From: Methylobacterium sp. Leaf118
GTDB taxonomy: Bacteria; Pseudomonadota; Alphaproteobacteria; Rhizobiales; Beijerinckiaceae
Direction: 5' to 3'
Length of the DNA: 64,000 bases
Assembly (NCBI RefSeq): GCF_920984675.1
Contig: NZ_CAKLBV010000017.1
Coordinates: forward strand, 1 to 64,000
Shown here in pieces: positions 1,827-30,440 of this stretch. A program made the position numbers and the translations under genes. The notes below the pieces were generated by a model. That model saw only the letters and a list, made by a program, of their open reading frames with translations, did no database searches and was not told where the DNA came from. Every line of letters begins with the position of its first letter. The first letter of the stretch is position 1.

Positions 1827-1834
1827 GCGCCGCC

Positions 1835-5889: not shown

Positions 5890-7686
5890 CTACAGCCGCA
5901 GCGCGCCCGCCGCGAGCGCCGCGTGCAGGTCCGGGTCGATCGGCCGATAGGCGCCATCGCGGTCGATATAGAGCGGATCGGCGATGCGGGCCGGGTCGAA
6001 CCCTTCCTCGGCCAGCACCGCCTTCTTCTGCTTGAAGGTCTCGGTGTGGCCGAGATCCTCCGTGAGCCGGAGGAACAGCGGGCGGGCATAGGCCGGCAGC
6101 CGCTCCGCGAGGTCGGCATGGAGCCGCGCCACGTCGAAGCCGAGGCCGATGGTCAGCGCGGCCATGCCGGCGCGGCCGTCCGCGCCCGGCACGGCGACGC
6201 CGTAGACGCAGGCCTCGGCAACGCCGTCCGTGCGGGAGAGCGCCTCGGCGACCTCGGTCGTGGCGACGTTCTCGCCCTTCCAGCGGAAGGTGTCGCCGAT
6301 CCGGTCGACGAAGTAGAAGTAGCCTTGCGCGTCGCGCCGCATCAGGTCGCCGGTCCGCATCCAGGCATCGCCCGGTTTCACCACGTCGCGCAGCACCTTG
6401 CGGGCGCTCTCGGCGTCGCTGGTATAGCCCTCGAACGTGTATTCGGCCTTGTCCGAGAGGCGGCCGAGCAACTCGCCCGCCTCGCCGAAGGCGGCCGGGA
6501 TGCAGCGCCCCTCGGCATCGCGCAGCGGCAATCCGGTGGCCACGTCGTGTCGCACGATCAGCGCGGGCGAGCGCCGCGCCATGAAGCTCGGCACCCGGCC
6601 GACCGCGCCGACCTTGCCCTCGACGTTGTAGAGCGAGAGCGTGCCCTCGGTGGCTGCGTAGAATTCGAGGATGCGGGGCACCGCGAAGCGCTCCTGGAAC
6701 CGCTCCCACACGTCCGGGCGCAGGCCGTTGCCGGTGCAGAGCCGCAGGCGATGCGCCCGCTCCTGCGGATCGGGGGGCGCGAGTGCGAGGTAGCGGCACA
6801 ATTCGCCGATATACTGGAACAGGGTCGCGCCGCTCTCGGTCACGTCCGACCAGAACCGGCGCGCCGAGAACTTTTCGCGGATCACCACGGAGCCGCCGCC
6901 CAAAAGCACGCTGCCCGGCGCCACCACGCCGCCGACGCTGTGGTAGAGCGGCAGGCAATCGTACATGCGGTCGTCGGGGCCGGGATCGGCCAGGCCGGCG
7001 AACCAATGGGTCCACATCATGATGCGGTGGTGACTGACCCGCGCGGCCTTCGGCAGGCCGGTGGTGCCGGAGGTGTAGATCAGGAGCGCCGGGTCGCGCA
7101 GGCTGACCGCGGGCGCCTCGCCGGGCTCCAGCGGGTCGCCCGAATGGGCGGCGGCCTGCATGGCGAGGGACTCGTCCGCCCCCTCGCCCTGCCAGACCAG
7201 CACGGGGCGCTCCGGAAGATGGGGCAGGGCGCCGTCGAGGGCCTCGGCGAGGTCAGTTCCGGCAATGACGAGGCGGGGGGCGGCCACCGCGATGCAATGG
7301 GCGAGCCCGCGTTCGCGCAGGTTCGTGTTGAGCAGCGCCACCCGCACCCCGACCCGGCTCAGCCCGAGCCAGATCGCGAGGTAGTCCGGCCGGTTGCGCA
7401 TCAGCAGCGCCACGGTGTCGCCCTTGGCGAGGCCGCGCGCGCGCGCCCAGCGGGCGTAGCGGTTGCGCCGGGCGGCGAACTCGCCGTGGCTCAGGGTCTC
7501 GTCGGTGCCGATCAGGGCCGGGGCGCCCGCCCGCTCGGCGGCGACCGCGTCGAGGACCAGCGGGAAGATGCGGCCCGGCTCCGCGTCGATCCGGGCGGTG
7601 CGCTCCAGGGCGCCGATCCAGCCGGCGGTCGCGGAGGCGCGGGGCGGCGGGGCCGGGACGGGAGTGGCGGGGGGCTGGAGCTGCAT
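5890..7686 (-). CDS. Long-chain (FadD6/FATP-like) acyl-CoA synthetase
   Basis: Activates fatty acids to acyl-CoA through an acyl-adenylate. The 598-residue ANL enzyme shows the P-loop IYTSGTTGLPKAARV, the FYAATEGT loop, the MRTGDLMRRD motif with DRIGDTFRWKGENV, and the C-terminal Lys region GHTETFKQKKAVL. The short FATP-like signatures (RWKGENVATTEV) place it with long or very long chain synthetases rather than acetyl-CoA synthetase. The Met at 7686 (MQLQPP) fits the 13-bp gap to metA; longer upstream frames run into metA. It may be co-transcribed with metA by proximity only. Confidence 0.88.
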   Translation of the reverse strand: MQLQPPATPVPAPPPRASATAGWIGALERTARIDAEPGRIFPLVLDAVAAERAGAPALIGTDETLSHGEFAARRNRYARWARARGLAKGDTVALLMRNRPDYLAIWLGLSRVGVRVALLNTNLRERGLAHCIAVAAPRLVIAGTDLAEALDGALPHLPERPVLVWQGEGADESLAMQAAAHSGDPLEPGEAPAVSLRDPALLIYTSGTTGLPKAARVSHHRIMMWTHWFAGLADPGPDDRMYDCLPLYHSVGGVVAPGSVLLGGGSVVIREKFSARRFWSDVTESGATLFQYIGELCRYLALAPPDPQERAHRLRLCTGNGLRPDVWERFQERFAVPRILEFYAATEGTLSLYNVEGKVGAVGRVPSFMARRSPALIVRHDVATGLPLRDAEGRCIPAAFGEAGELLGRLSDKAEYTFEGYTSDAESARKVLRDVVKPGDAWMRTGDLMRRDAQGYFYFVDRIGDTFRWKGENVATTEVAEALSRTDGVAEACVYGVAVPGADGRAGMAALTIGLGFDVARLHADLAERLPAYARPLFLRLTEDLGHTETFKQKKAVLAEEGFDPARIADPLYIDRDGAYRPIDPDLHAALAAGALRL

Positions 7687-7699: not shown

Positions 7700-8716
7700 T
7701 TACGCGAGGGCCGAGACCGGCGCGGCCGCCGGACGATGGGCGCGGCGAGCCGCCACCTGGGTGAGCCAGTTGCGGAACAGACGGCTTGCTCCCTCCGGCC
7801 ATTCCGCGGGGCGGGGCGGCGTCGCCTCCCGGTCGGGGAAGTCGGCATGGAGGGCGGGCGTCCGCTCGCGGAGCGCGCGCTCCGCGAAGGCCTGGAGCCG
7901 CGCCGCGGCCTCGGCGCCGTAATAATCTACAGGCAGACCCGGCAGGGTGTCGCGGCTCCCGTCGAGGAAGCGGCCCATGTCCCGGCGGTACTCGCGGGCC
8001 AGCGTGTCGGGCTCGTATTCGGGATGGCCCTGGAGGAACACCATCAGGCTACGGCCCTCCCGCACGAACAGGTCGACGCCGACCTGCTCCGAGCGGCGCA
8101 GCACCGTGTAGCCCCGGGCGGCGAGGTCGGCCTCGGGCAGGTCGTTCCAGCGCGAATGCGGCACCGGCATCACGGCCGGCATCCCGGCGAGGAGCGGGTG
8201 GACGGCGGTGGCGGCGCAGGCATAGACGCCCGAATGCTTGGCCGGCAGCGGCCGGCGCTCGATCCGGTCGAGATGCAGCACCGCAGCATGGGCCGCGAGG
8301 CAGGAGAACAGGGTCGAGACCGTGTGGGCGGCCGCCCAATCCACCACGGAGGCGAATTCCGCGTAATAGGGCTCATGGTCGAGGCGAGCGGCCTTCGGCT
8401 CGGCGCCGGTGATCACCAGGGCGTCGAGGCCGGCGGCCGCGAGCGCCGTGTGGGACGCGTAGCACCGGTCGAGATGAGCGCGGGCCAGCGGCCCCCGCGG
8501 CACCGCGTCGAGGCTGAAGAAGCGCAGCTCGGCCTCCGGGCCGATCAGCCGCCGGAACTGCCGCTCCGTCTGGACGAGGGCGGTGTCCGGCATGTTGTTG
8601 AGGAGGCCGATCCGCAGGCGGGGCGCGGGCGTGCCCGGCTGGGACCGGGGCGCCAGGATGGATTCGGAGAGGCCCGGCTCGCCGTAGGACGTGCCTGAAA
8701 CGCCGTGTTCCAGCAT
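7700..8716 (-). CDS. metA: Homoserine O-succinyl/acetyltransferase (MetA family)
   Basis: Acylates homoserine for methionine synthesis. The 338-residue protein carries the family signature LLNNMPDTALVQTERQFRRL near residue 40, the nucleophile Cys in TLFSCLAAHAAV, and the catalytic His-Glu region FLQGHPEYEPDT. In this family acyl donor specificity (succinyl or acetyl) depends on one active-site residue and is not decided here; pairing with MetY suggests an O-acyl ester used for direct sulfhydrylation. A clear GAGGAGAGAG ribosome site precedes the ATG at 8716. It lies 53 bp after metY on the same strand. Confidence 0.9.
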   Translation of the reverse strand: MLEHGVSGTSYGEPGLSESILAPRSQPGTPAPRLRIGLLNNMPDTALVQTERQFRRLIGPEAELRFFSLDAVPRGPLARAHLDRCYASHTALAAAGLDALVITGAEPKAARLDHEPYYAEFASVVDWAAAHTVSTLFSCLAAHAAVLHLDRIERRPLPAKHSGVYACAATAVHPLLAGMPAVMPVPHSRWNDLPEADLAARGYTVLRRSEQVGVDLFVREGRSLMVFLQGHPEYEPDTLAREYRRDMGRFLDGSRDTLPGLPVDYYGAEAAARLQAFAERALRERTPALHADFPDREATPPRPAEWPEGASRLFRNWLTQVAARRAHRPAAAPVSALA

Positions 8717-8769: not shown

Positions 8770-10062
8770 TCAGGCCGCGAGCGCCAGCGGCCGGGCGGCG
8801 GCGAGCGCCTGGTCGAGATCGGCGACGATGTCGTCGACATGCTCGATGCCGACGCTGATCCGGATGGTCTCGGGCAGCACGCCCGCGACCCGCTGCTCGT
8901 CCGGCGTCATCTGGCGGTGGGTGGTCGAGGCCGGATGGCAGGCCAGGGACTTGACGTCGCCGATGTTGACGAGCCGCTTCACCAGCTTGAGTGCGTCGTA
9001 GAAGGTCTTGCCGGCCTCGAACCCGCCCTTCACCCCGAAGGTCAGCAGCGAGGAGCCCTCGCCGCCGAGGTACTTCTTCGCCATCGCGTGGTTTGGGCTG
9101 TCGGGGAAGCCGGCGTAATTGACCCATTCGACGCCCGGATGCGCGCGCAGATACTCGGCGACCTTGCGGGCGTTGGCGACGTGGCGCTCGACACGCAGCG
9201 CCACCGTCTCGATGCCCTGGAGCAGCAGGAAGGCGGAGAGCGCCGGCAGCACCGCGCCCGTGGTGCGCTGATAGACGCTGCGGGCCCGGGCCGCGAAGGC
9301 GCTTCGGCCGAAATGCTCGGCGTAGACGAGCCCGTGATAGGACACGTCCGGCGTCGTGAACATCGGGAAGCGGTCGCCGTGGGCGGCCCAGTCGAAATTG
9401 CCCGAATCGACCACGATGCCGCCCAGCGTGGTGCCGTGGCCGCCCATGAACTTGGTCAGCGAGGCGATGACGATGTCGGCCCCGTAATCGATCGGGCGCA
9501 GCAGGATCGGGGTCGGGACGGTGTTGTCGACGACGAGGGGCACGCCGTGGGCGTGGGCGACACGGGCCAGAGCTTCGATGTCGCAAATATTGCCGGCGGG
9601 GTTGCCGATCGATTCGCAGTAGACCGCCCGGGTCTGGTCGTCGATCAACGCGGCGATGTCTTCGGGCCGGTCGCTCGCGGCGAAGCGGGTGGTGATGCCC
9701 TGGCGCGGCAGGACGTGGGCGAGCAGGGTATGGGTGGTGCCGTAGAGCTGGGGCACGCAGACGATGTTGCCGCCATGGTCGGCCAGCGTCGCGATGGCGT
9801 AATGCAGGGCCGCCTGCCCCGTGGCGACGGCGAGCGCCGCGTGGCCGCCCTCGAGATCGGCGACCCGCCGCTCCAGCACGGCCACCGTCGGGTTGGCGAT
9901 GCGGCTGTAGCGGTAGCCTTCCTCCTCCAGATTGAACAGGGCGGCCCCGTGATCGGCGCTGTCGAAGGCGTAGGCGACGCTCTGGTAGATCGGCACAGCG
10001 ACGGCATGGGTGGTCGGATCGTGCTCGAAGCCGGCGTGAACCGCGATCGTTTCGCTGCGCAT
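8770..10062 (-). CDS. metY: O-acetylhomoserine sulfhydrylase (PLP-dependent)
   Basis: Makes homocysteine from O-acylhomoserine and sulfide. The 430-residue Cys/Met-metabolism PLP enzyme starts MRSETIAVHAGF, has the substrate loop YRYSRIANPTVAVLE, the PLP-stacking region CVPQLYGTTH, the Asp-containing VVDNTVPTP and the Schiff-base Lys in IASLTKFMGGHGTTLGG. Length matches MetY (about 430) rather than shorter MetB/MetC. ATG at 10062 is chosen because it aligns with the family start; the open frame upstream has no homologous character. It forms a methionine unit with metA downstream. Confidence 0.92.
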   Translation of the reverse strand: MRSETIAVHAGFEHDPTTHAVAVPIYQSVAYAFDSADHGAALFNLEEEGYRYSRIANPTVAVLERRVADLEGGHAALAVATGQAALHYAIATLADHGGNIVCVPQLYGTTHTLLAHVLPRQGITTRFAASDRPEDIAALIDDQTRAVYCESIGNPAGNICDIEALARVAHAHGVPLVVDNTVPTPILLRPIDYGADIVIASLTKFMGGHGTTLGGIVVDSGNFDWAAHGDRFPMFTTPDVSYHGLVYAEHFGRSAFAARARSVYQRTTGAVLPALSAFLLLQGIETVALRVERHVANARKVAEYLRAHPGVEWVNYAGFPDSPNHAMAKKYLGGEGSSLLTFGVKGGFEAGKTFYDALKLVKRLVNIGDVKSLACHPASTTHRQMTPDEQRVAGVLPETIRISVGIEHVDDIVADLDQALAAARPLALAA

Positions 10063-10487: not shown

Positions 10488-10946
10488 GTGTCTACCACCG
10501 CGATGATTCCGTCCGTGACGACCGGTGATCTGCGGCCGGCTCCGATCGAGCCGAGCTGGGTTCACGAGGGGATGCCCGTGGCGCGCAACACCATGCTGTC
10601 GCGCAGCGACGATCGCCTGGCTTGGACCCTGGTCTGGGATTGCACCGCCGGCAAGTTCGAGTGGCACTACGATATCGACGAGACGATCCACTTTCTCGAA
10701 GGTTCGGCCACGATCAGCGACGGCATCTCGCCGGCCAAGACCTTCGTTGCGGGCGATGTGCTCTTCATTCCCCGCGGGGCGGTCTGCCACTGGCATGTCG
10801 AGAGCTACGTCCGGAAGGTGGCCTTCTGCCGCCAGACCCAGCCGAAATACCTCGCGCTGGCGCTCCGGGCCTTCGCCAAGGTGAAGAAGATGCTGCGGCG
10901 CAAGTCCTCGCCGTCAGTCGGCGGCGGTCTGCTCGAAGCGGCCTGA
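10488..10946 (+). CDS. Cupin-domain protein
   Basis: A 152-residue single-domain cupin of the Cupin_3/DUF861 type. The barrel motifs are visible as AGKFEWHYDIDETIHFLEGSA and FVAGDVLFIPRGAVCHWHV, with His/Glu ligands able to bind a metal. A GTG start at 10488 is preferred because GAGGAAGAC precedes it; ATG at 10503 is an alternative. The C-terminal tail KVKKMLRRKSS is basic. Related proteins bind small ligands or act as sugar or ureidoglycine enzymes, and the role here is unknown. Confidence 0.8.
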   Translation: MSTTAMIPSVTTGDLRPAPIEPSWVHEGMPVARNTMLSRSDDRLAWTLVWDCTAGKFEWHYDIDETIHFLEGSATISDGISPAKTFVAGDVLFIPRGAVCHWHVESYVRKVAFCRQTQPKYLALALRAFAKVKKMLRRKSSPSVGGGLLEAA

Positions 10947-11031: not shown

Positions 11032-11916
11032 ATGACGACGCCCGTGACCGACACGACGCCCGAGACCGATACCTGGACCTTCTTCGAGGGCGCGTGGCAT
11101 CCCGGGAACGTGCGGATCATGGGGCCCCGCACCCACGGTTCCTGGCTCGGCTCGACGGTGTTCGACGGAGCCCGCGCCTTCGAGGGCGTCACCCCCGACC
11201 TCGACCTGCATCTCGCCCGCGTCAACCGCTCGGCCACCGCCCTCGGTCTCGCGCCGAAGCTCTCGGTCGCGCAGTGGAGCGATCTCGTCGCCCAGGGGCT
11301 CGCCCGCTTCGCCCCCGATGCCGAACTCTACATCCGGCCGATGTACTGGGCCGAGAGCGGGTTTGCCGGCGGCGTGCGCTTCGATCCGGCCTCCACCAAC
11401 TGGTGCCTGTCGATCTACCACGCACCGATGCCGCTGCCGTCGGGCGTGCGCGCCACCCTCTCCCCCTTCCGGCGGCCCTCCAACGAGGTCGCCCCGGTCG
11501 AGGCCAAGGCGGGCTGCCTCTACCCGAACGGCGCCCGCGCGCTCACGGAGGCGCTCGGACGCGGCTTCGCCAATTGCCTGATGCTCGACGGGCTCGGCAA
11601 CGTCGCCGAATTCGCCAACGCCAACGCGTTCCTGGCCCGCGACGGCGTGGTCTATACCCCGGTCCCCAACGGCGTCTTCCTGGCCGGCATCACCCGGGCC
11701 CGGGTCATCGCGCTCCTGCGCGGCGCGGGCGTCGAAGTGGTGGAGAAGACCCTGCGCTACGACGATTTCCTCGGCGCCGACGAGGTGTTCACCGCGGGCA
11801 ACTTCGCCAAGGTGGCGCCGGTCACGGGGCTCGACGAGGTGCGGTTCGAGCCGGGGCCGATGTTCCGCCTGGCGCGCCAGCTCTACTGGGACTTCGCGCA
11901 CGGGCGGCTGGCTTAG
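11032..11916 (+). CDS. Branched-chain amino acid aminotransferase-like enzyme (fold type IV PLP)
   Basis: A 294-residue class IV aminotransferase that would exchange amino groups between branched-chain amino acids and 2-oxoglutarate, or a related substrate. The PLP Lys is in VEAKAGCLYPNGARAL, followed by the family signature ANCLMLDGLGNVAEFANANAF. The N-terminal TWTFFEGAWHPGN is typical of the short BCAT-like paralogues common in alphaproteobacteria, and a second housekeeping IlvE elsewhere is likely. The ATG at 11032 lies 28 bases after the previous hairpin. Substrate specificity is inferred only from family. Confidence 0.85.
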   Translation: MTTPVTDTTPETDTWTFFEGAWHPGNVRIMGPRTHGSWLGSTVFDGARAFEGVTPDLDLHLARVNRSATALGLAPKLSVAQWSDLVAQGLARFAPDAELYIRPMYWAESGFAGGVRFDPASTNWCLSIYHAPMPLPSGVRATLSPFRRPSNEVAPVEAKAGCLYPNGARALTEALGRGFANCLMLDGLGNVAEFANANAFLARDGVVYTPVPNGVFLAGITRARVIALLRGAGVEVVEKTLRYDDFLGADEVFTAGNFAKVAPVTGLDEVRFEPGPMFRLARQLYWDFAHGRLA

Positions 11917-12135: not shown

Positions 12136-13824
12136 TTACCGACCCGCCAGCGCCTTCTCGCGGATCGTGGTCAGCGTCGCGCCGGGCGTGATCGCGTCGA
12201 CGGCGATCTTCACATGGATGATCGAAGGCAGGCCCGCGGCGAGCGCCGCGTCGAGGGCGGCGGGAAAGTCCTCGGTCCGCTCCACCGTGAAGCCGGCCCC
12301 GCCGAAGGCGCGGGCGTAAGCCGCGAAGTCCGGGTTCACGAGGTCGGTGGCGCAGACCCGGCCCGGAAAGTCCCGCTCCTGATGCATCCGGATGGTGCCG
12401 TAGCTGGCATTGTCGGCGACGATGCAGACGATGTTGAGCCCGTACTGCACGGCGGTCGCGAATTCCTGGCCGTTCATCAGGAAGTCGCCGTCGCCGTTGA
12501 GCGAGATCACCGTCCGTTCCGGATGGAGACGCTTCATCGCCACCGCCGCCGGCACGCCGTAGCCCATCGAGCCGGAGGTCGGCGCCATGTGGGTGGACAG
12601 CCGCCGGAAGCGGTAGAAGCGGTGGATCCAGGCGGCGTAGTTGCCCGCGCCGTTGCACAGGATCGCGTCGGACGGCAGCGCGTCGCGCAGCTGGATCATC
12701 ACCTCGCCGAAATTCACCGTGCCGGGCTGGGGCGTCGCCGTCTCGCTCCAGGCGAGGTATTCGCCATGGGCCTCCCGCGTCCCCTCGGACCAGGGCGTGG
12801 CGGAAGGTGCAGGCAGCCGCGCCAGCGCCGCCGCCATCCGGGTCGGGGCGGCGTTGATCGCCAGATGCGGGACGTAGACGCGGCCGAGCTCCTCCGGTCC
12901 GGGATGGATGTGGACGAGCCGGGTGCGCGGCCCCGGGATGTCGAGGAGCGCGTACATCTGGCTCGCGACCTCGCCGAGGCGTCCGCCGAGCACGATCAGC
13001 AGGTCGGCGGCCTTCACCCGGGCGACGAGCTTGGCGTTGGCGGCCAAGCCCAGATCGCCCGCGTAGTTCGGGTGCAGCGGGTCGAACAGCGGCAGGCGGC
13101 GGTAGCTCGTCGCCACCGGCAGGTCGAAGGCTTCCGCGAAGGCGCGGATGTCGGCATAGGCGCGCTCGTCCCAGCGGCTGCCGCCGAGGACCAGGAACGG
13201 GGCCTGCGCCTCGGCCAGCAGCGCGCCCAGCCGCGCGAGATCCTCGGCGCCCGGGGCGGCCTCGACCGGCACGAAGGCCGGGGCGGCGGGGCCGGGCACG
13301 GGGTCCTTCAGCATGTCCTTGGGCAGCGCCATCACCACCGGGCCGGGCCGGCCGCCGCAGGCGGTGTGGAAGGCGCGGGAGACGTATTCGGGCATGCGGG
13401 CCCCGGTCTCGACCTCGGTCGCCCATTTGCAGATCGGCCCGAAGGCGGCGCGGTAATCGATCTCCTGCCACGCCTCGCGGTCGCGCAAGCCCCGCTCGAT
13501 CTGGCCGACGAACAGGATCATCGGCGTCGAGTCCTGCTGGGCGATGTGGATGCCGGCGGAGGCGTTGGTGGCGCCGGGCCCGCGGGTGACGAAGCAGATG
13601 CCCGGCCGGCCGGTGGCCTTGCCGTGGGCCTCCGCCATCATCGCGGCGCCTCCCTCCTGGCGGCAGACGGTGATCCGGATGCCGGATTCGTGCAGCGCGT
13701 CGAGCACCGGCAGGTAGCTCTCGCCCGGCACCGCGAAGACGTGCTCGACGCCGTTGGCGACGAGCTGGTCCACCAGCGCCTGCGCCGCGGTGCGGGGCTT
13801 CGGGGTCAGACTCTCCTGGGACAT
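12136..13824 (-). CDS. Thiamine-diphosphate enzyme, acetolactate-synthase-like
   Basis: A 562-residue three-domain ThDP enzyme. The N-terminal Pyr domain has the catalytic Glu in CRQEGGAAMMAEAHGK. The central Rossmann domain includes VLGGSRWDERAY. The C-terminal PP domain holds the metal/ThDP motif NGDGDFLMNGQEFATAVQYG ending in ADNASYG. It resembles IlvB paralogues annotated as acetolactate synthase catalytic subunit or benzoylformate decarboxylase-like, but no small regulatory subunit lies beside it, so a biosynthetic AHAS role is uncertain. Start at 13824 (MSQESLTPK) fits the domain start. The reaction remains unassigned. Confidence 0.8.
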   Translation of the reverse strand: MSQESLTPKPRTAAQALVDQLVANGVEHVFAVPGESYLPVLDALHESGIRITVCRQEGGAAMMAEAHGKATGRPGICFVTRGPGATNASAGIHIAQQDSTPMILFVGQIERGLRDREAWQEIDYRAAFGPICKWATEVETGARMPEYVSRAFHTACGGRPGPVVMALPKDMLKDPVPGPAAPAFVPVEAAPGAEDLARLGALLAEAQAPFLVLGGSRWDERAYADIRAFAEAFDLPVATSYRRLPLFDPLHPNYAGDLGLAANAKLVARVKAADLLIVLGGRLGEVASQMYALLDIPGPRTRLVHIHPGPEELGRVYVPHLAINAAPTRMAAALARLPAPSATPWSEGTREAHGEYLAWSETATPQPGTVNFGEVMIQLRDALPSDAILCNGAGNYAAWIHRFYRFRRLSTHMAPTSGSMGYGVPAAVAMKRLHPERTVISLNGDGDFLMNGQEFATAVQYGLNIVCIVADNASYGTIRMHQERDFPGRVCATDLVNPDFAAYARAFGGAGFTVERTEDFPAALDAALAAGLPSIIHVKIAVDAITPGATLTTIREKALAGR

Positions 13825-14142: not shown

Positions 14143-14667
14143 ATGAGCCTCGCGCCCGATGTCCCGCCCCCGCCGGTCGCCGACGGGGCCCTCCTGAAAC
14201 AGGCGATGCGCCGCCTCGTCGGCGGGGTGGTGATCGTCACCGCGGGCAGCGGCGAGGACCGCGTCGGGTTGACTGCCACCTCCGCGGTGTCCCTCTCGGT
14301 CGATCCGCCCACCATGCTGGTCTGCGTCAACCGCGCCTCGTCGAGCTGGCCGGTCATCGCCCGGCGCCAGCATTTCTGCGTCAGCATCCTCGGGGCCGGG
14401 CAGCAATCCGTGGCGGAGCGCTTCGCCGGAATCGGCGGCCTGCGCGGCCCGGCCCGCTATCTCGGCGCGGACTGGACCACCATGGCCTCCGGCGCCGCGG
14501 GCCTCACCCAGGCGCAGGCCATCATCGATTGCGACCTCGAAGAGGTCATCGAGCGGCACAGCCACGCCATCCTGCTCGGCGCCGTGCGCGAGGTGCGCCT
14601 GCACGGCGAGGCCGCCGGCGCCCTGGTCTATGGCGGCGGCGGCTTCATCGAGCTGTCGCCCCCGTGA
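14143..14667 (+). CDS. Flavin reductase (HpaC/FMN-binding split-barrel family)
   Basis: A 174-residue flavin reductase-like protein expected to supply reduced FMN or FAD from NAD(P)H. Family features: MRRLVGGVVIVTAGSGEDRVGLTATSAVSLSVDPP (read as separate blocks: flavin-binding GLTATSAVSLS and DPPTMLVCVN), then HFCVSILGAGQQ and the HAILLGAV strand. Start at ATG 14143 is chosen because GAAGG lies six bases upstream; ATG at 14071 would add 24 residues. It heads the run that contains an acyl-CoA dehydrogenase-fold protein, a pairing typical of two-component flavin monooxygenases. Confidence 0.82.
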   Translation: MSLAPDVPPPPVADGALLKQAMRRLVGGVVIVTAGSGEDRVGLTATSAVSLSVDPPTMLVCVNRASSSWPVIARRQHFCVSILGAGQQSVAERFAGIGGLRGPARYLGADWTTMASGAAGLTQAQAIIDCDLEEVIERHSHAILLGAVREVRLHGEAAGALVYGGGGFIELSPP

Positions 14668-14688
14668 CGGGCGCCGGAAGTGGTAAGA

Positions 14689-14800
14689 TTGACCGATAGT
14701 TTATGCCAATCTCTGATTAACTAACTAAATGTTTAATAAAACGAATCGGATTGATCCTGAAATCAGGAAGAGTATTTATCGGGACAATGATTGTATTAGC
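14689..14800 (+). promoter_or_regulatory. AT-rich leader and candidate promoter of the carrier-protein run
   Basis: Base composition drops sharply here against a very GC-rich background. TTGATC (14751-14756) and TATTTA (14773-14778) stand 16 bp apart and resemble -35/-10 elements; TTGACC at 14689 is another -35-like site. A dyad TCCTGA-AA-TCAGGA (14755-14768) overlaps the first candidate and could be an operator. This is pattern reading only, with no start site known. Confidence 0.4.
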
Positions 14801-14851
14801 CCAGCAGGGCGACCAGCCCGCTCAACTCAGATCGGAAAGGTACGGAAGACG

Positions 14852-15124
14852 ATGTCGGCGACGGTGATGGAGAGCGTGGCGAGCCGGACGATGGGCCTCG
14901 CCTACGAGATCGCGGGGCGGCACGCGATCAAGCCGGCCTTCGGACCCGGCGACGCCCTGGTCGATGTCGGCCTGTCGTCCCTCGACCTCGTGAACCTGAT
15001 GATCGCCGTCGAGTCGGAGTTCGACATCATGATCCCGCCCTCGGCGCTGACGCCGAAGAACTTCTACTCGATCGAGACCATCGCCCGGATGGTCGAGACC
15101 GTGTGCTCGGCCCCGTCGGCCTGA
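14852..15124 (+). CDS. Acyl/peptidyl carrier protein
   Basis: A 90-residue stand-alone carrier protein. The phosphopantetheine attachment Ser lies in VGLSSLDLVNLMIAVESEF, with the usual helix II following and the IPPSALTPKNFYSIETIARMV helix III region. The ATG at 14852 follows a GGAAGAC site; a longer frame from 14729 passes through AT-rich leader and is not protein-like. In this position it is the likely partner of the amino acid:carrier protein ligase 1.3 kb downstream, rather than of fatty acid synthase. Confidence 0.88.
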   Translation: MSATVMESVASRTMGLAYEIAGRHAIKPAFGPGDALVDVGLSSLDLVNLMIAVESEFDIMIPPSALTPKNFYSIETIARMVETVCSAPSA

Positions 15125-15182
15125 TCCCGTCCTTCGCGCAACACGGCCGGCGCGACCGGCTTCAGATCCTCGGAGCCAAGCC

Positions 15183-16382
15183 ATGACCATTCAGCCGATG
15201 TCCGTCCCGCCCGAAGCGGCCACCGCGACCGATCTCGCCGCCCGCGCGGCGGCGGTGGCGGCGGTCGCCGCCCTCCATGCCGAGGCGGTCGACCGCGACG
15301 GCCGCTTCCCGGCCGAGGCGGTCGCCGCGCTGAAGTCGCAGCGCCTGCTCGGGGCCGCGGTGCCGATCGAGCTGGGCGGGGAGGGCGCCTCGATCCGGGC
15401 GCTCGCCGACATCTGCTACGCCCTCGGCCGTGCCTGCGCCTCGACGGCGATGATCTACGCCATGCACCAGACCAAGATCGCCTGCCTGATCCGGCACGGC
15501 CGGGACGGCGCGTGGCGCGACGGCCTGATCCGCCGCATCGCCGACGAGCAGCTGCTCATGGCCTCCTCGACGACCGAGGGCCAGGGCGGTGGCAATGTCC
15601 GCGCCTCCTCCGCCGCGATCGAGGGCGATGGCGAGAGCGTGAGCCTGGAGCGGGCCGCCACCGTGATCTCCTACGGCGCCCAGGCCGACGGCGTCGTCAC
15701 CGTCGCCCGCCGCAACGCGGAGGCCGCCGCCTCCGACCAGGTGCTCTGCGTGTTCCTCAAGGAGGACTACACCCTGGAGCGCCTGAGCGGCTGGGAGACG
15801 CTCGGCATGCGCGGCACCTGCAGCAGCGGCTTCCGCCTGGTGGCGCGCGGCCGGCCCGAGCAGGTGCTCGCCACCCGCTACGGCGATGTCCACAACCAGA
15901 CCATGACCCCGGTCTCCCATATCCTGTGGTCGAGCGCCTGGGCCGGCATCGCCGCCTCGGCGGTCGATCGCGCCCAGGCCTTCACCCGCACGGCGATGCG
16001 GGGCGCGGGCGGCGTCGCCCCGCCCGGCGCGCTGCACTACGCCCGCGCCGTCTCCAGCCTGAAACAGGCCCGCGCGCTGATCGTCCAGGGGCTCGACCGG
16101 TTCGAGGCCGCGGGCGACGACGCCTCGGCGCTGGCCGCCCTCGATTTCCAGACCGCGATCACGATGCTCAAGGTCGAGGTCTCGGAACTCGCGGTCGCCG
16201 CCGTGTCGAGCGCGCTCCGGGCCAACGGGCTCGCCGGCTACCGCCAGGACGGCGATTTCAGCGTCGGCCGGGCCCTGCGCGACATCCTCTCGGCGCCGAT
16301 CATGATCCACAACGACCGCATCATGGCCAACCTCGCCACCGCCACCCTGATGTCCCCGGTCGCCGCCTCGCTGAGCGCCTGA
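15183..16382 (+). CDS. Acyl-CoA dehydrogenase-fold flavoprotein
   Basis: A 399-residue protein with the acyl-CoA dehydrogenase domains in order: N-terminal helices (VAALKSQRLLGAAVPIELGG), the middle beta domain (SSTTEGQGGGNVRASSAA, GWETLGMRGTCSSGFRL) and a C-terminal helical domain ending GLAGYRQDGDFSVGRALRDIL. The usual catalytic Glu motif (YEGT-like) near the C terminus is replaced by IMIHNDRIMANLA. That loss is typical of DszC/HsaA-type flavin monooxygenases, and a flavin reductase gene lies just upstream. A carrier-bound aminoacyl or acyl group is the probable substrate. Dehydrogenase activity is not excluded. Confidence 0.82.
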   Translation: MTIQPMSVPPEAATATDLAARAAAVAAVAALHAEAVDRDGRFPAEAVAALKSQRLLGAAVPIELGGEGASIRALADICYALGRACASTAMIYAMHQTKIACLIRHGRDGAWRDGLIRRIADEQLLMASSTTEGQGGGNVRASSAAIEGDGESVSLERAATVISYGAQADGVVTVARRNAEAAASDQVLCVFLKEDYTLERLSGWETLGMRGTCSSGFRLVARGRPEQVLATRYGDVHNQTMTPVSHILWSSAWAGIAASAVDRAQAFTRTAMRGAGGVAPPGALHYARAVSSLKQARALIVQGLDRFEAAGDDASALAALDFQTAITMLKVEVSELAVAAVSSALRANGLAGYRQDGDFSVGRALRDILSAPIMIHNDRIMANLATATLMSPVAASLSA

Positions 16383-16436
16383 CGCCGGCCCCGCCTCCCC
16401 GATCCTTCGCCCGCCCTCGCCTGAGAGACTGCCCCC

Positions 16437-17369
16437 ATGAACATGCCCGTCAAGAACGTGCCGGCCGCCCCCCCCGCGACCGATCCCCTCGACTCCCTGT
16501 TCGACGCGATGTTCAAGCCCATGAACGCGCAGGGCGTCTACGCCCGCACCGGCGCCTACGAGTCGGTGGTCGAGGCGCTGGCCGCCTTCATCTCGTCGCG
16601 CCGCGACGAGGGCACGGAGGTGTTCCGCTTCCCGCCGGTGATGAGCCGCGCCCATCTCGAGCGCCACGGCTACCTCAAGAGTTTTCCGAATCTCCTGGGC
16701 TGCGTCTCCTGCCTCGAAGGCTCGGAGACTGACATCCGCGCCTACGCCGACCGGCATCTTTCCGGCGGCGACTGGACCGAAGGCCTCGAGACCGCCGACC
16801 TCGTGCTGACGCCGGCCGCCTGCTACCCGGTCTACCCGATCGCCGCCGCCCGCGGCGCCGTGCCGGAGGCCGGCTACCGCTTCGACGTCGCCTGCGACTG
16901 CTTCCGCCGCGAGCCCTCGCGCCATCTCGACCGGCTGCAATCCTTCCGGATGCGCGAATACGTCCGCATCGGCACGCCCGAGCAGATCGTCGCCTTCCGC
17001 GAGGCCTGGATCGAGACCGCCACCGCCATGGCCGACGAACTCGGCCTGACCTACACGGTCGAGACCGCGAGCGACCCGTTCTTCGGCCGGCTCGGCCAGA
17101 TCATGGCCTTCAGCCAGCTGGAGCAGGCGTTGAAGTTCGAGCTACTGATCCCCCTGCGCGGGGCGGCGGCCGGCACCGCCTGCATGAGCTTCAACTATCA
17201 CCGCGAGCATTTCGGCACGACCTGGGGCCTCAACCTCGCCGACGGCGAGCCGGCCCATACGGGCTGCGTCGCCTTCGGCATGGACCGTCTGGCGGTGGCG
17301 ATGTTCGCGACCCACGGCGAGTCCATCGCGGATTGGCCGGCCGCCATCCGCGCCACGCTGAAGCTCTGA
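16437..17369 (+). CDS. Amino acid:[carrier protein] ligase (class II aaRS-like)
   Basis: A 310-residue homologue of the catalytic core of atypical seryl-tRNA synthetase without a tRNA-binding arm. Known relatives in Bradyrhizobium and Agrobacterium activate glycine or alanine and load it on a carrier protein. Seen here: motif 2 CFRREPSRHLDRLQSFRMRE (155-174), motif 3 FGMDRLAVAMF (280-290), and Cys129, Glu174 and Cys277, which fit the Zn-binding triad of the family. The carrier gene two genes upstream supports the role. The amino acid selected cannot be read from sequence. Confidence 0.88.
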   Translation: MNMPVKNVPAAPPATDPLDSLFDAMFKPMNAQGVYARTGAYESVVEALAAFISSRRDEGTEVFRFPPVMSRAHLERHGYLKSFPNLLGCVSCLEGSETDIRAYADRHLSGGDWTEGLETADLVLTPAACYPVYPIAAARGAVPEAGYRFDVACDCFRREPSRHLDRLQSFRMREYVRIGTPEQIVAFREAWIETATAMADELGLTYTVETASDPFFGRLGQIMAFSQLEQALKFELLIPLRGAAAGTACMSFNYHREHFGTTWGLNLADGEPAHTGCVAFGMDRLAVAMFATHGESIADWPAAIRATLKL

Positions 17370-17404
17370 TCCCAAGGTGTAATCCCACGACCGGAGCCGC
17401 CGCG

Positions 17405-18340
17405 ATGGCCCTCGACCCGCATGTCAGCCGCTTCCTCGACATGATGGCGCTCGGGGCCTCGGGCGGCATCGATCTCGCCGCCCGTCGCGCGGGCCTGCGC
17501 GGGCTCGCCCGCCTGGCCGCCGCCGGCGCCCCGGCGGGAGGGATCTCGGTCCGCGATCTCACCATGCCGGGCCCCGGCGGCGCCCTCGCGCTTCGCCTTT
17601 ACGCGCCGGAGGGCGCGGCCCCCGGTCCCGGTCTCGTCTTCCTGCACGGCGGCGGCCTCGTCACCGGCGATCTCGACACCCACGATGCGATGTGCCGGAC
17701 CCTGGCCGAGTCCGGCGCGATGCGCGTGGTCGCGGTCGCCTACCGACTCGCTCCCGAGCATCCCTTCCCGGCCCCCCTCGACGACGCCCTCGCGGCGACA
17801 CGCTGGGTGGCCGCGCAGGCGGACGATCTCGGCATCGATCCGGTCCGCCTCGCCGTCGGCGGGGAATCGGCCGGGGCGGGGCTCGCCGCCCGGGTCTGCC
17901 AGGAGATGCGGGAGGCCGGCCGGACCCTGGCCGCGCAGCTCCTGATCTGCCCGGTTCTCGATGTCCACGGTGCCGGCGCCTCGCGCCGGGATTTCGCCCG
18001 GGGCTACTTCCTCGACGAGGCGACGATCCAGACCGACCTCGCCGCCTGCGGTCCCGAAGCGCGGCCGGAGCCCCGGTTCTGCCCGCTGCGGGAGACGGAT
18101 CTGGCCGGGCTCCCGCCGGCCCGCATCCATACCGCCGAGTACGACCCGGTGCGCGACGACGGCGAGACCTATGCGGCGCGCCTCGCGCAGGCCGGCGTGC
18201 CGGTCGTCCAGGCCCGCCATGCCGGCATGATCCACTTCTTTTACGGTCTCGGGCGCCTCGTTCCCCGCGCCCGGCCGATCCTCTCGGAGATCGCCCGCGA
18301 CTTCTCGGAGTTGCTGCGCGCCCCCGCCCCGACCGCCTGA
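17405..18340 (+). CDS. Alpha/beta hydrolase, hormone-sensitive lipase family
   Basis: A 311-residue esterase-like hydrolase. The oxyanion-hole motif FLHGGGLVTGD, the nucleophile elbow GGESAGAG, an Asp in TAEYDPVRDDG and a His in HAGMIHFFYG complete the HSL-type triad. No signal peptide is seen, so it acts in the cytoplasm. The start at 17405 begins the family N-terminus MALDPHVSRFLDMM, which is common in such hydrolases. Inside the carrier-protein run it may release product from a carrier thioester or act as an editing hydrolase; this is inference from position. Confidence 0.85.
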   Translation: MALDPHVSRFLDMMALGASGGIDLAARRAGLRGLARLAAAGAPAGGISVRDLTMPGPGGALALRLYAPEGAAPGPGLVFLHGGGLVTGDLDTHDAMCRTLAESGAMRVVAVAYRLAPEHPFPAPLDDALAATRWVAAQADDLGIDPVRLAVGGESAGAGLAARVCQEMREAGRTLAAQLLICPVLDVHGAGASRRDFARGYFLDEATIQTDLAACGPEARPEPRFCPLRETDLAGLPPARIHTAEYDPVRDDGETYAARLAQAGVPVVQARHAGMIHFFYGLGRLVPRARPILSEIARDFSELLRAPAPTA

Positions 18341-18368
18341 TCCGCCCTCTCGTTCCCCGGAGTCTCCC

Positions 18369-18626
18369 ATGTCCCTGCGTTCCACCGTCCACGCCGAGAT
18401 CGCCGCCATCGCCGCCGAGCAGGAGAAGCGGATGCCGCCGATCACCGACGATCTCGTGATGCTCGACACCGAGTTCGACTCGCTCTGCTTCGCCCTCCTG
18501 GTCGCCCGGATGGAGGACCTGACCGGGGCCGACCCGTTCTCCGAGATGGAGGCCGAGGACCTGCCCGTGACGGTCGGCGACCTCGTCGCCCTCTACGACC
18601 GCGCCGCGGCCAAGCAGGCGGCCTGA
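18369..18626 (+). CDS. Second small carrier-protein-like gene
   Basis: An 85-residue helical protein. TEFDSLCFALLVARMEDLTG matches the carrier-protein pattern in which Ser after Asp (DSL) carries phosphopantetheine, followed by helix II. The C-terminal DLPVTVGDLVALYDRAA resembles helix IV. It differs strongly from the carrier at 14852, so it probably serves a different enzyme, most simply the ANL ligase that begins 5 bp after its stop codon. Attachment of phosphopantetheine is inferred. Confidence 0.75.
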   Translation: MSLRSTVHAEIAAIAAEQEKRMPPITDDLVMLDTEFDSLCFALLVARMEDLTGADPFSEMEAEDLPVTVGDLVALYDRAAAKQAA

Positions 18627-18631
18627 CCGTC

Positions 18632-19996
18632 ATGATCCTGCGCGAGAGACTTCTGGCGGCGGGCGGGCTCGACGGCCTGTTCCTGTCCGACCACCGCGAG
18701 CGAAGAGACCTCGCGGGGATCGTCCACGGCCCGCGCGACGCCGCGGCGAGCGAGAGGCTCTCCGGCAAGCGCGTGCTGCTCGCGGTCGGCGGGCAGATGG
18801 CGGCGGCCCGGGCCATGCTGGCCCTCGACGGTCTCATCTCGCGGCTCGCCCTGGTGCCCCCCGGCCTCGCCCCGGAGCACATCGCGCGGATCGCCGCCGA
18901 TTCCGAGGCCGAGATCGTCGTGTTCGATGCCGAGGGGTTGCCCGACGACGCCCTGCCGGGCCTGCCCCGTATCGACGCCGAGGCCGCCAGCGCGGCCGGG
19001 GCGGAGACCGGGCGGGAGACCGAATGGGCGCTCGCCACCTCGGGCACCACCGGCGCCCCGAAGCTCGTCGCCCACACCCTCGAAGGCTTGGCCGGCGGCA
19101 TCAACACGGCCGCCGCGCCGGAGCCCGGCACGGTCTGGTCGACCTTCTACGACATTCGCCGCTACGGCGGCCTTCAGGTCTTCCTGCGGGCGATGCTGGC
19201 CCCGACCTCGCTGGTGCTCTCCGACAGGCACGAGCCGGTGCGCGACTATCTCGTCCGGGCCGGCGGCGCGGGCGTCACCCACATCCTCGGCACGCCCTCG
19301 CACTGGCGCCTCGCCCTGATGAGCGCGGCGCTCGACCGGCTCTCGCCCCGCTACGTGCGGCTGTCCGGCGAGATCGCCGACCAGACCGTGCTCGACCTCC
19401 TGCGGGCGGCCTTCCCGCAGGCCCGCATGGCCCATGCCTACGCCTCGACCGAGGGCGGCGTCGGCTTCACCGTCGAGGACGGGCGCGAGGGCTTCCCGGC
19501 CGCGCTGATCGGCACCCGCGCCGGGATCGAGATCGCGGTCCGCGACGACGCCCTCTACGTGCGCTCGCGGCGGACCGGACGGCGCTATCTCGGGGGGACG
19601 ACGGAGCCTCTGATGGCCGAGGACGGGTTCGTCGATACCGGCGACCTCGTCGAGCGGCGGGGCGAGCGCTACCACTTCCTCGGCCGACGCAGCGGCGTCA
19701 TCAATGTCGGCGGCGCCAAGGTGCAGCCCGAAGAGGTCGAGGCCGTCGTCAACCTGCATCCGGGCGTGTCGATGTCCCGGGTGCGGGCCCGGCCGAACCC
19801 CATCCTCGGCGCCGTCGTCGAGGCCGAGGTGGTGCTGCGGGCCGGCACCGACGCCGCCGACCCGGCCGCGCTGAAGAAGGCGATCATCGCCCATTGCCGC
19901 CCGCGTCTCAGCCAGCACAAGGTGCCGGCGAGCGTGCGCTTCGTCGACAACCTGCCGCTCACCTCGGGCGGCAAGCTGGTGCGGAGGGTGCCGTGA
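18632..19996 (+). CDS. ANL-superfamily adenylating ligase
   Basis: A 454-residue AMP-forming ligase, shorter than typical acyl-CoA synthetases (about 500-550) because the N-terminal subdomain is reduced. The P-loop ALATSGTTGAPKLVAHT, YASTEGGVGF, the DTGDLVERRGERYHFLGR motif and the hinge/C-domain NVGGAKVQPEEVE are present, with the catalytic Lys in LTSGGKLVRR at the C terminus. It directly follows a carrier protein gene (5 bp) and overlaps the SDR gene, so acyl loading onto that carrier is likely. The acid is unknown. Confidence 0.85.
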   Translation: MILRERLLAAGGLDGLFLSDHRERRDLAGIVHGPRDAAASERLSGKRVLLAVGGQMAAARAMLALDGLISRLALVPPGLAPEHIARIAADSEAEIVVFDAEGLPDDALPGLPRIDAEAASAAGAETGRETEWALATSGTTGAPKLVAHTLEGLAGGINTAAAPEPGTVWSTFYDIRRYGGLQVFLRAMLAPTSLVLSDRHEPVRDYLVRAGGAGVTHILGTPSHWRLALMSAALDRLSPRYVRLSGEIADQTVLDLLRAAFPQARMAHAYASTEGGVGFTVEDGREGFPAALIGTRAGIEIAVRDDALYVRSRRTGRRYLGGTTEPLMAEDGFVDTGDLVERRGERYHFLGRRSGVINVGGAKVQPEEVEAVVNLHPGVSMSRVRARPNPILGAVVEAEVVLRAGTDAADPAALKKAIIAHCRPRLSQHKVPASVRFVDNLPLTSGGKLVRRVP

Positions 19997-20736
19997 CCGA
20001 TCTCAGGGAAGGCCGTCTCGTCGTCGTGACGGGCGCGAGCCGGGGCCTCGGCCTCGCCATGGCCTCGACGCTCGCCGCAGAAGGGTTTCGCGTGGTCGCC
20101 CTGGCGCGGCGCCCGAGCGAGGCGCTGGAGGCGGCCTGCGAGACCGCCCCGTTCGGCGCGATCCAGTTCCTGGCCGCCGATCTCGGGCAGCTCGAGGCGC
20201 TCCAGCCCCTCGTCCAGCGGATCAAGGCGGAGCACGGGCCGATCTACGGCCTCGTCAACAACGCCGCGCTCGGCACGCCGGGTCTGCTCGCCACCATGTC
20301 GGCGGCCAAGATCGGCGAACTCGTCCACCTCAACACCATCGCCCCGATGGTGCTGACCAAGTACGTGGCCCGCGGCATGATGACGGCGGGCGCCGGGCGC
20401 ATCGTCAATGTCAGCTCGATCATCGCCTTCACGGGCTATAACGCGCTGTCGGTCTATGCCGCTACCAAGGCCTCGATGATCGGCTTCACCCGCTCCTTCG
20501 CCCGCGAGGTCGGACGCCTCGGGGTGACGGTGAACGCCGTGGCCCCGGGCTTCATCGAGACGGCCCTCACGGAAGGGATGGACGAGGCCGAGCGGAGCCG
20601 CGTCGCCAACCGCAGTGCGCTCAAGCGCCTGGCCGAACCGCAGGACGTGGCGGACGCCGTCGCCTACCTGATGTCCGACAAGGCCCGCAACATCACCGGC
20701 ACGGTCCTGACGATCGACGCCGGCAGCACGGCCTGA
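19993..20736 (+). CDS. Short-chain dehydrogenase/reductase (FabG-like)
   Basis: A 247-residue classical SDR. The NAD(P)-binding TGASRGLGLAM, the NNAALG motif, the active-site Ser in IVNVSSIIAF, and YAATKAS with catalytic Tyr/Lys are all present, as is the C-terminal NITGTVLTIDAGSTA. The GTG start at 19993 overlaps the ANL ligase stop (GTGA), so the two are translationally coupled. FabG-like relatives reduce 3-ketoacyl-carrier thioesters, which fits a pathway built on carrier proteins. The substrate is not known. Confidence 0.88.
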   Translation: MTDLREGRLVVVTGASRGLGLAMASTLAAEGFRVVALARRPSEALEAACETAPFGAIQFLAADLGQLEALQPLVQRIKAEHGPIYGLVNNAALGTPGLLATMSAAKIGELVHLNTIAPMVLTKYVARGMMTAGAGRIVNVSSIIAFTGYNALSVYAATKASMIGFTRSFAREVGRLGVTVNAVAPGFIETALTEGMDEAERSRVANRSALKRLAEPQDVADAVAYLMSDKARNITGTVLTIDAGSTA

Positions 20737-20929: not shown

Positions 20930-21898
20930 ATGTACGCCCTGCACGATGCCGCCGAAGCGCCGGCGGCGATGCCCGCGGCCCCCAACCCCGCCGTCCCCAA
21001 CCCCGCCGCCCCCAAGCCCGAGCGCGCGAAGGTTCGCTGCCGCACCATCGAGGAGCACGACCTCGATGCCGTGATCGGCCTGCTGCGGACCGGGTTCTCG
21101 GACCGCTCGGAGGCCTATTGGCGCACGGGTTTCGCCCGCCACCGGGCGCAAAGCCTGCCGGATGGCGTGCCGCGCTACGGCTACCTGCTCGAGCGGGACG
21201 GCGAGGCGGTGGGCGTGCTGCTGGCCCTCTACCGGGCCGTCGAGGCGGAAGGCGGCACCCATTGGCGCTGCAATCTGTCGAGCTGGTACGTGAAGCCGGA
21301 ATTCCGCTCCCTCGGCACGCTGCTCGACGGCTTCGCCATGCGCGACAAGGCGGTGACCTACGTCAACGTCTCGCCCGCGCCCCAGACCTGGGCGATGCAC
21401 AAGGCGCGCGGCTTCAAATCGATCTGCGCCGGCCAGATGCTGTCCCTGCCCCTGCTCGGGCGCCACCGCGGCCGGGTCCGGGCCGCCTCGCCCGAGACCC
21501 TGGAGCTCCTTCCCGAGGCGGAGGCCCGCCTCGTCGCCGACCACGTCTCCTATGGTTGCCTCGGCCTCGTCTGGTCGGACGGGGCGGAGGCCGGGGCGCT
21601 GCTGTTCCAGCGCCGCGCCCTCAAGCTTCTGCCGGGGCGTCTCGCCCGGCTGCGCCTGCCGGGCCTCCAGCTTGTCTACCGCTCGCCGACTCTCGACCTG
21701 ACCGCCTGCCTCGGGGCGGTCGGCCGTTATCTCCTCCTGCGCCACGCCATGCCGTGGTTCGTCCTCGACGCCCTCGCCCGCCCGCCCGGAATCGCCGGCC
21801 GCTACTTCCCGGGCCGCGCCCCGAAATTCGCCCGCGGCCCCAACCCGCCCGCGGCGGGCGATCTGGCCTATACCGAGATCGTCCTGTTCGGGGCCTGA
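20930..21898 (+). CDS. GNAT-like acyltransferase domain protein
   Basis: A 322-residue protein whose N-terminal part looks like a GNAT N-acyltransferase: VRCRTIEEHDLDAVIGLLRT (beta1/alpha1), YGYLLERDGEAVGVLLALYR, SSWYVKPEFRSLGTLLDGFA and WAMHKARGFKSICAGQM. The C-terminal third has a hydrophobic stretch and no known motif. GTG at 20921 or ATG at 20798 are alternative starts; a Pro/Ala-rich segment of NPAVPN repeats lies near the N terminus. It is 193 bp after the SDR on the same strand and could transfer a carrier-bound acyl or aminoacyl group to a sugar, which is a guess from context. Confidence 0.65.
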   Translation: MYALHDAAEAPAAMPAAPNPAVPNPAAPKPERAKVRCRTIEEHDLDAVIGLLRTGFSDRSEAYWRTGFARHRAQSLPDGVPRYGYLLERDGEAVGVLLALYRAVEAEGGTHWRCNLSSWYVKPEFRSLGTLLDGFAMRDKAVTYVNVSPAPQTWAMHKARGFKSICAGQMLSLPLLGRHRGRVRAASPETLELLPEAEARLVADHVSYGCLGLVWSDGAEAGALLFQRRALKLLPGRLARLRLPGLQLVYRSPTLDLTACLGAVGRYLLLRHAMPWFVLDALARPPGIAGRYFPGRAPKFARGPNPPAAGDLAYTEIVLFGA

Positions 21899-22604: not shown

Positions 22605-22650
22605 CGGCCCGCGCCGTCCGCCCGCGCGACGGAGCGGGCGATCGCGGGGC

Positions 22651-30435: not shown

Positions 30436-30440
30436 CGGCG

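Follow-up and report, generated by a model that had tools for sequence, protein, structure and literature searches.

The stretch of Methylobacterium sp. Leaf118 DNA analysed here (64,000 nucleotides of contig C17, hereafter the window; the genome has 5.06 Mb) carries, between positions 14143 and 20736, eight genes that a preliminary description had read as one whole pathway with two separately loaded carrier proteins. Here, we provide evidence that these genes are part of a larger co-inherited set, whose unity as a single pathway is well supported. We see an even chance that this set, of about 14 genes, assembles a small amide-type product on a pair of free-standing carriers, with no nonribosomal peptide synthetase (NRPS). 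What was computed is the identity of the gene families, their block structure and the co-inheritance of an amino acid:[carrier protein] ligase with a GNAT-fold protein, an adenylating ligase (ANL), a homoserine O-succinyltransferase (HTS) and an O-acylhomoserine sulfhydrylase (OAHS). All eight genes are indeed on the plus strand at the positions first described. They are not the whole pathway: the genes inherited together also include a ninth one, encoding the GNAT, and those of an upstream block. The members found in the window are as follows.

5890..7686, minus strand: ANL2, long-chain acyl-CoA synthetase family (PRK08279; 752 bits, above the cut-off)
7700..8716, minus strand: HTS, MetA family (NF003776, 436 bits)
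8770..10062, minus strand: OAHS, a pyridoxal phosphate (PLP) enzyme of the O-acylhomoserine sulfhydrylase family, pathway-specific paralog (TIGR01326, 594 bits)
10572..10946, plus strand: EutQ-like cupin (Cupin_3, 64.5 bits)
11032..11916, plus strand: AT4, class IV aminotransferase (PRK13356; 459 bits, above the cut-off)
12136..13824, minus strand: thiamine diphosphate (TPP) enzyme, acetolactate-synthase-like (PRK08199, 872 bits)
14143..14667, plus strand: flavin reductase (Flavin_Reduct, 115.8 bits), optional member
14852..15124, plus strand: CP1, carrier protein presumably loaded by the ligase (PP-binding, 28.7 bits)
15183..16382, plus strand: flavoprotein of the acyl-CoA dehydrogenase (ACAD) fold (Pfam Acyl-CoA_dh_N and _1; 48.1 and 24.2 bits, both above the cut-off)
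16437..17369, plus strand: type II amino acid:[carrier protein] ligase (NF005479, PRK07080; 468.3 bits, cut-off 357)
17405..18340, plus strand: HSL-family alpha/beta hydrolase, possible release enzyme (Abhydrolase_3, 214 bits)
18369..18626, plus strand: CP2, second carrier protein (D-S-L motif in aligned relatives)
18632..19996, plus strand: ANL, adenylating ligase presumed to load CP2 (AMP-binding 61 bits, AMP-binding_C 51 bits)
19993..20736, plus strand: SDR, FabG-like reductase (PF13561; 174 bits, above the cut-off)
20930..21898, plus strand: tandem GNAT-fold protein, putative transferase (Pfam GNAT matches under the cut-off; assigned from the predicted structure)

The ligase family was found in 72 of 111 congeneric genomes: 24 have the type II ligase of the window (454-473 bits) and 48 have type I only (492-523 bits), and G031 holds both types. 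Score classes were set at gaps in bits or identity chosen after viewing the output, and ligase fragments or distant matches of 98-132 bits (G093, G010) were given no type. Every one of the 24 type II genomes has the GNAT (at least 270 bits; also G037 and G084), the ANL (E<=1e-60; also G084), the HTS (at least 300 bits; also G037), the OAHS (at least 82% identity; also G037) and the TPP enzyme (at least 76% identity; also G037), G037 being a 90% complete assembly of about 730 contigs. Weaker matches of the GNAT (109-146 bits in G004, G011, G018, G031, G052, G092 and G109) and of the HTS (88-96 bits in G006, G041, G068, G091 and G096) were left uncounted. The Fisher p values against the type II ligase range from 1.9e-23 to 2.4e-22 for GNAT, ANL, HTS and OAHS, and the value for the TPP enzyme is 8.8e-20.

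This is a patchy trait. Genomes were binned by the identity of their PEPC to that of the window genome, a proxy for a tree that measures distance from the window and not clades; the type II ligase occurs in 11/18, 1/22, 6/27, 0/24, 4/4 and 2/16 genomes of the successive bins, the first of these being the bin of at least 93% identity, and presence and absence are mixed in four of the six. When the partners were permuted within these bins (20,000 draws each for GNAT, ANL, HTS and OAHS), at most 19 genomes were shared with the ligase, against the 24 observed. The type-I-only genomes serve as an internal control, with the GNAT in one of 48 (G084). Beyond the genus, in a class sample of 385 genomes, a ligase of at least 62% identity occurs in four, each of which also has the GNAT (p 1.7e-8); the latter is also found at 170 bits or more in two further genomes without such a ligase; GNAT matches of 45-57 bits (G143, G181, G272, G370) and a second match of 87 bits in G356 were dropped there. 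The occurrence of the ANL, the marker of the CP2 block, in 24/24 type II genomes suggests that two separately loaded carriers do serve one pathway, as had been proposed.

A coincidence of neighbourhood, in which CP1-ACAD-ligase would be one pathway and HTS-OAHS-AT4 an accessory methionine route kept for unrelated ecological reasons, appears improbable to us. It would account for the fact that the genes are of primary-metabolism families, and HTS-OAHS does lie away from the main ligase locus in most of the Bradyrhizobium examined, a sample with no ligase-free control. However, the 24/24 co-occurrence holds for four partners in groups where the trait is patchy, and no partner has more than two exceptions. 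Moreover, generic OAHS copies exist besides the pathway paralog, and three second Bradyrhizobium clusters carry an HTS and an OAHS of their own.

The order of the eight genes, whose conservation the preliminary description had put forward as its own test, does not hold. The locus survey covered the best 80 of at least 559 ligase relatives, all type II loci (81 with the window), and the exact order was found in only seven of the 80 (L040-L046). Gene order was thus rejected as a test of unity and co-occurrence, a stronger test, was used instead. The single-pathway idea survives this failure because the set is co-inherited despite shuffling and dispersal. In the survey, presence was scored within the fetched flanks by fixed bit thresholds, and the counts rest on tblastn because a simple gene caller missed genes in several loci; gene absences at several loci are uninformative because the contigs there end close to the ligase.

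What recurs is a series of blocks, CP1-ACAD-ligase, CP2-ANL-SDR and HTS-OAHS-ANL2. In G030, G032 and G051 the blocks are far apart or on separate contigs, yet all are held and internally intact; on one contig of G030, HTS/OAHS lie at 3.44 Mb, the GNAT at 4.40 Mb, the ligase at 4.47 Mb and ANL/TPP at 6.81 Mb. CP2-ANL-SDR is accompanied by the TPP enzyme in these three genomes, and also by the GNAT in G032 and G051. At the other extreme, a compact cluster in G250 (L173) gathers 12 members in about 13 kb, and second sets of 11 and 10 members are found in Bradyrhizobium G501 (L186) and G496 (L180), respectively; in G180, which like G250 is one of the four class-sample genomes with the ligase, 10 members are spread over two contigs, and CP1 has no match in the sequence taken. 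The second Bradyrhizobium clusters of G496, G501 and G504 have their own HTS, OAHS, ligase, ACAD, CP1, CP2 and ANL2, and those of G496 and G501 also ANL, SDR and GNAT. Copies of ligase and OAHS diverge in parallel: compared to Rhodopseudomonas, the main Bradyrhizobium set shows 83-85% identity for the ligase and 88-90% for OAHS, and the second set 75-77% and 74-75%.

The ligase is the best-defined member. It aligns with Bll0957 of Bradyrhizobium (amino acid:[carrier protein] ligase 1, PDB 3mey) over residues 7-308 of 310 with 461 bits, and the core motifs match, with long motif stretches that are nearly letter-identical. It scores above the curated cut-off of its family, has no tRNA-binding domain and is single-copy in the window genome. 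Its nearest named relatives among the matches listed are those of M. rhodinum, M. suomiense and M. salsuginis (95-96%), and the Bradyrhizobium relatives are 65-68% identical to it. The residues Cys129, Glu174 and Cys277 pointed out in the preliminary description are all as stated; we take them to be equivalent to the Cys, Glu and Cys zinc ligands of Bll0957, whose amino acid specificity is presumably glycine. Such ligases were reportedly described in 2010. Their biological role is called unknown in a 2022 review (PMC9437257), and the GNAT, the CP2 block and HTS-OAHS are not described as partners in the partial literature texts searched on these ligases, which does not show that no such description exists.

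CP1, ACAD and ligase occur together in 80/80 loci, with CP1 on the opposite strand in 73, an association beyond chance. The carrier serine motifs reported earlier were confirmed by a serine in 17/17 aligned rows (11 of CP1, where it is Ser43, and six of CP2). In B. diazoefficiens the acd gene bll0958 carries the locus tag directly after bll0957, and a published table lists bll0957, bll0958 and metZ with raised levels in a phaR mutant (PMC10888616). The table gives a hint of joint regulation of the three genes, a weak one because other genes are also in it.

The fold of the flavoprotein does not tell an acyl-CoA dehydrogenase from a two-component flavin monooxygenase of the DszC/KijD3-like class. 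The model (pLDDT 75.3) gives Z scores of 33.7-36.1 across the 50 listed chains, with FMN monooxygenases (DszC/TdsC), true ACADs and ColB1 as neighbours and no clear winner. The flavin reductase, the kind of partner that such a monooxygenase needs, is present in the window but proves to be an optional member of the set, with 8/80 loci; its frame is open from 14071, and the called start in one relative is the residue matching 14143. Acyl-CoA dehydrogenases use a catalytic glutamate, Glu376 in MCAD. No Glu is found at that position in the 21 aligned ACAD-fold sequences, which instead read R-D-x6-M-I-[HN]-N-D-R-I. Type I and type II proteins and one example from Bacillota belong to a single ACAD subfamily: all 8 sequences compared have A-M-H, end in S-x-x-x-M-I-x-N-D-R and lack the classical Glu. 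Lys98, at the position of Asp91 of 7p98, a residue with a functional role, is invariant in the 21 type II sequences and varies in type I. Classical alpha,beta-desaturation is impossible if the substrate is glycine, as glycine has no beta carbon; with this presumed substrate, imine formation or N-oxidation remains for the flavoprotein. ColB1 (7xp7), reported to dehydrogenate an assembly-line-tethered cysteine, has the same fold (Z 35.1, tied with many); however, it acts in an assembly line and shares 19% identity with the ACAD-fold protein in the structural alignment.

The genes from CP1 through SDR are separated by 58, 54, 35, 28, 5 and -4 bases. CP2, ANL and SDR are found in 20/80 loci, as a block and in either orientation, often with the TPP enzyme and the tandem GNAT, and the HSL hydrolase is found in 23/80. 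CP2 has no Pfam or NCBIfam match, and its assignment is therefore based on the D-S-L motif and on the acyl carrier protein annotation of relatives that neighbour ANL-SDR. The C-terminal GK lysine of the ANL is invariant in 14 sequences, and the SDR scores 198 bits against TIGR01830, under the cut-off of 297.75. Pfam detects no NRPS condensation domain among nine of the proteins, nor in the first seven of a second scanned set.

Clustering of neighbouring open reading frames brought out the GNAT-fold protein, which lies within the fetched flanks of 66/80 loci. Its predicted structure (pLDDT 82.6, pTM 0.74, 28 sequences) is that of a tandem GNAT. Foldseek gives tandem GNATs as best matches (E 4e-9), and VIA-align gives tied Z scores of 11-13 for glucosamine N-acetyltransferases (GlmA), N-myristoyltransferases (NMT) and Eis; a sequence search of the PDB gave no match with an E-value of 1 or less. 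Neither FemX nor L/F-transferase appears in the lists of 50 structural matches per search, which does not exclude either of them. The acetyl-CoA motif of GNATs is Q/RxxGxG/A; at the expected site in the first half of the protein we read, by eye, R-N-Y-A-P-L or R-S-L-G-T-L. The fold thus suggests a transferase and does not point to its substrates. Two gene clusters adjoining CP1, with 49 members each among 92 sequences, all within L060-L118, could be taken to indicate an acyl-homoserine-lactone-synthase-like (LuxI-like) enzyme using S-adenosylmethionine and the charged carrier, since we take them to be MtnP (methylthioadenosine phosphorylase) and MtnA (methylthioribose-1-phosphate isomerase), which would salvage methylthioadenosine. 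We give this very little credence: the MtnP/MtnA neighbours are confined to Bradyrhizobium-like loci (most of them), the GNAT has tandem domains and the autoinducer-synthase family was not matched in our searches.

The upstream block appears in shuffled order within the fetched flanks (ANL2 in 15/80 loci, HTS in 18, OAHS in 22, the cupin in 16, AT4 in 19 and the TPP enzyme in 16), and its genes are seen in Methylobacterium, Rhodopseudomonas, part of Bradyrhizobium, Bosea and a betaproteobacterial metagenome-assembled genome, not every member being present in each group. ANL2 is beside HTS-OAHS in L162, L169 and L172. HTS is present in 24/24 genomes chosen from ligase loci, a sample without ligase-free Bradyrhizobium, and OAHS is beside HTS in 19/19 stretches from 16 Bradyrhizobium genomes. 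These genes are not the sole methionine biosynthesis copies of the genus, as HTS (at least 300 bits) and the OAHS ortholog each occur in 25/111 genomes, with generic OAHS paralogs elsewhere; the ortholog has at least 82% identity, and the other OAHS copies listed have 45-49%. G000 has three further OAHS-family genes (on C5, C55 and C75; 47-49% identity), and one of the matched frames contains a stop codon. In rhizobitoxine synthesis an OAHS-type replacement also takes place at C4 of homoserine; the likeness is one of description only, and we know of no carrier proteins in that route. Our literature searches found no relevant natural-product cluster with HTS, OAHS and carriers, and no relevant ColB1-like precedent.

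In the pathway that we propose, the ligase would load a small amino acid onto CP1, with glycine, the presumed substrate of Bll0957, as the most likely one. The ACAD-fold flavoprotein would then oxidise this aminoacyl group on its carrier, through imine formation or N-oxidation. On the other carrier, the ANL would load a small acid onto CP2, and the FabG-like SDR would reduce it. HTS would acylate homoserine and OAHS would put a nucleophile in place of the acyl group; the resulting gamma-substituted amino acid may be modified further by AT4 and the TPP enzyme. The tandem GNAT would then transfer a carrier-bound group to an amine, which could be that of the homoserine-derived unit, of the CP1 aminoacyl group or of a sugar, and the HSL hydrolase, where present, may release or trim the product. 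We favour a soluble amide with a homoserine-derived part, because amino-acid enzymes are found in the compact clusters, whose interiors leave no space for a glycosyltransferase. More tentatively, and somewhat short of an even chance, these genes could represent a so far undescribed class of amide synthesis on two free-standing carriers, in which an aminoacyl-tRNA-synthetase-derived ligase and an ANL charge separate carriers, each is redox-tailored, and the GNAT joins both groups, or one of them to the homoserine-derived amino acid.

The type I systems offer the closest comparison. We take them to be the Atu2573-type. They have the arrangement CP-ACAD-ligase-DUF1839-GH2, sharing with type II the carrier, the same ACAD subfamily and the ligase in the same order, but after the ligase they have DUF1839 and a glycosidase (GH2), whereas type II loci mostly have the GNAT. 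The type I loci compared come from plasmids of Azospirillum, Rhizobium, Mycetohabitans and Caballeronia and from two Methylobacterium stretches. DUF1839 and GH2 are found in 5/5 proteobacterial type I plasmid loci and in 0/81 type II loci; the GNAT is found in 67/81 type II loci, the window included, and in 0/7 plasmid ligase loci compared. Type I systems (L158, L159, L124-L128) are nearly exclusive with type II within the genus. For the Agrobacterium-type system, a note in proof by Iyer and colleagues predicts that the uncharacterised neighbour Atu2574 joins the amino acid to a cell-surface sugar by an amide and that a redox enzyme modifies the aminoacyl group (PMC2922099). A papain-like fold has been assigned to DUF1839 and an action on glycans guessed (PMC10318531), and we infer that Atu2574 is the DUF1839 protein. 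If type II works in an analogous way, its amide would be formed by the GNAT, the counterpart of this type I neighbour.

The same prediction also lends itself to another interpretation, the decoration of a surface glycan, in which the GNAT would put the oxidised aminoacyl group of CP1 and the reduced acyl group of CP2 on an amino sugar of an exopolysaccharide, HTS and OAHS supplying only an unusual substituent. We hold this to be unlikely, but it stays a serious rival because exopolysaccharide genes adjoin the cluster, on both flanks in the window, and because the CP2 block has relatives within or close to glycan clusters: two Rhodobacterales have them near glycosyltransferases, and in Azospirillum they sit in pseI/flagellin clusters. 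A Wzc-type match occurs in 12/19 Methylobacterium/Bosea loci (L040-L058) and adjoins the GNAT in L160 and L166, a Tsukamurella ligase sits among glycosyltransferases, and glucosamine N-acetyltransferases are among the tied top VIA-align matches of the GNAT. Nevertheless, 10 of the 12 Wzc matches have an identity of only 35-40%, and the compact clusters L173, L180 and L186 have no internal gap of more than 400 bases, which leaves no room for a glycosyltransferase in the cluster interiors. Furthermore, glycine decoration of a sugar needs no whole homoserine arm.

Several observations weigh against a single pathway to a soluble amide. The product and the chemistry are what we infer from the families, HTS, OAHS, AT4 and the TPP enzyme are all of families with primary-metabolism members, and the GNAT could act with acyl-CoA instead of a carrier. 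Shared ancestry is only partly controlled, because the PEPC bins measure distance from the window and not clades, and TPP versions of 73-75% identity occur in G012, G100, G102 and G108 without the rest of the set. In G084 (L164), CP2-ANL-SDR-GNAT is kept in a genome whose ligase is of type I and which has no HTS or OAHS ortholog, and G297 (L177) has the same block in a genome without a ligase match, the stretch taken showing no HTS or OAHS; the block can therefore work alone, or it is a relic in these genomes. The Bradyrhizobium ligase loci of the survey have no CP2 block within the fetched flanks, to which the search was confined, and the second set of G504 (L190) has no detectable ANL, SDR or GNAT though 2.9 kb follow CP2. 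Finally, the ACAD (68-71% vs 69-70%) and GNAT (58% vs 55-57%) copies of the main and second Bradyrhizobium sets do not repeat the contrast seen with ligase and OAHS.

If the two-carrier amide synthesis is true, it would define a family of small metabolites in Methylobacterium, Bosea, Rhodopseudomonas, Bradyrhizobium and their relatives. The co-inheritance itself narrows the question of why amino acids go onto carriers to a defined gene set, which has a homoserine arm and a candidate transferase and is present in bacteria that can be cultured. That the two system types can be told apart by their partner enzyme, DUF1839 or GNAT, predicts the same transfer step for both.

The exopolysaccharide genes that flank the cluster in the window lie at 783-4763 and 21927-34114, and comprise a GDP-mannose dehydratase, an epimerase-family sugar enzyme and a WecG-type transferase, together with an SGNH hydrolase, two Acyl_transf_3, Wzy_C, Wzz/GNVR and a glycosyltransferase. 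The Azospirillum CP-ANL-SDR genes are of the same three families in the same order as in the window, but they are accompanied by KAS III and pseI, whereas the window block has the GNAT, the ligase module and the homoserine arm; in L122 and L123 they lie, with a hydrolase and the KAS III, between pseI and flagellin genes, and a second phosphopantetheine-binding protein is annotated in L122. In Rhodopseudomonas (L103, positions 2664-6296, and L087) electron-transfer genes, presumably fixABCX-like, are close to the cluster; they might reoxidise the flavoprotein, or be there by chance. A Priestia plasmid (L130) carries AcpS-CP-ACAD-ligase, followed by a transporter, an ATP-grasp protein, a hydrolase, an alanine permease and an alanine racemase, possibly an alanine-type variant of the system in Bacillota.

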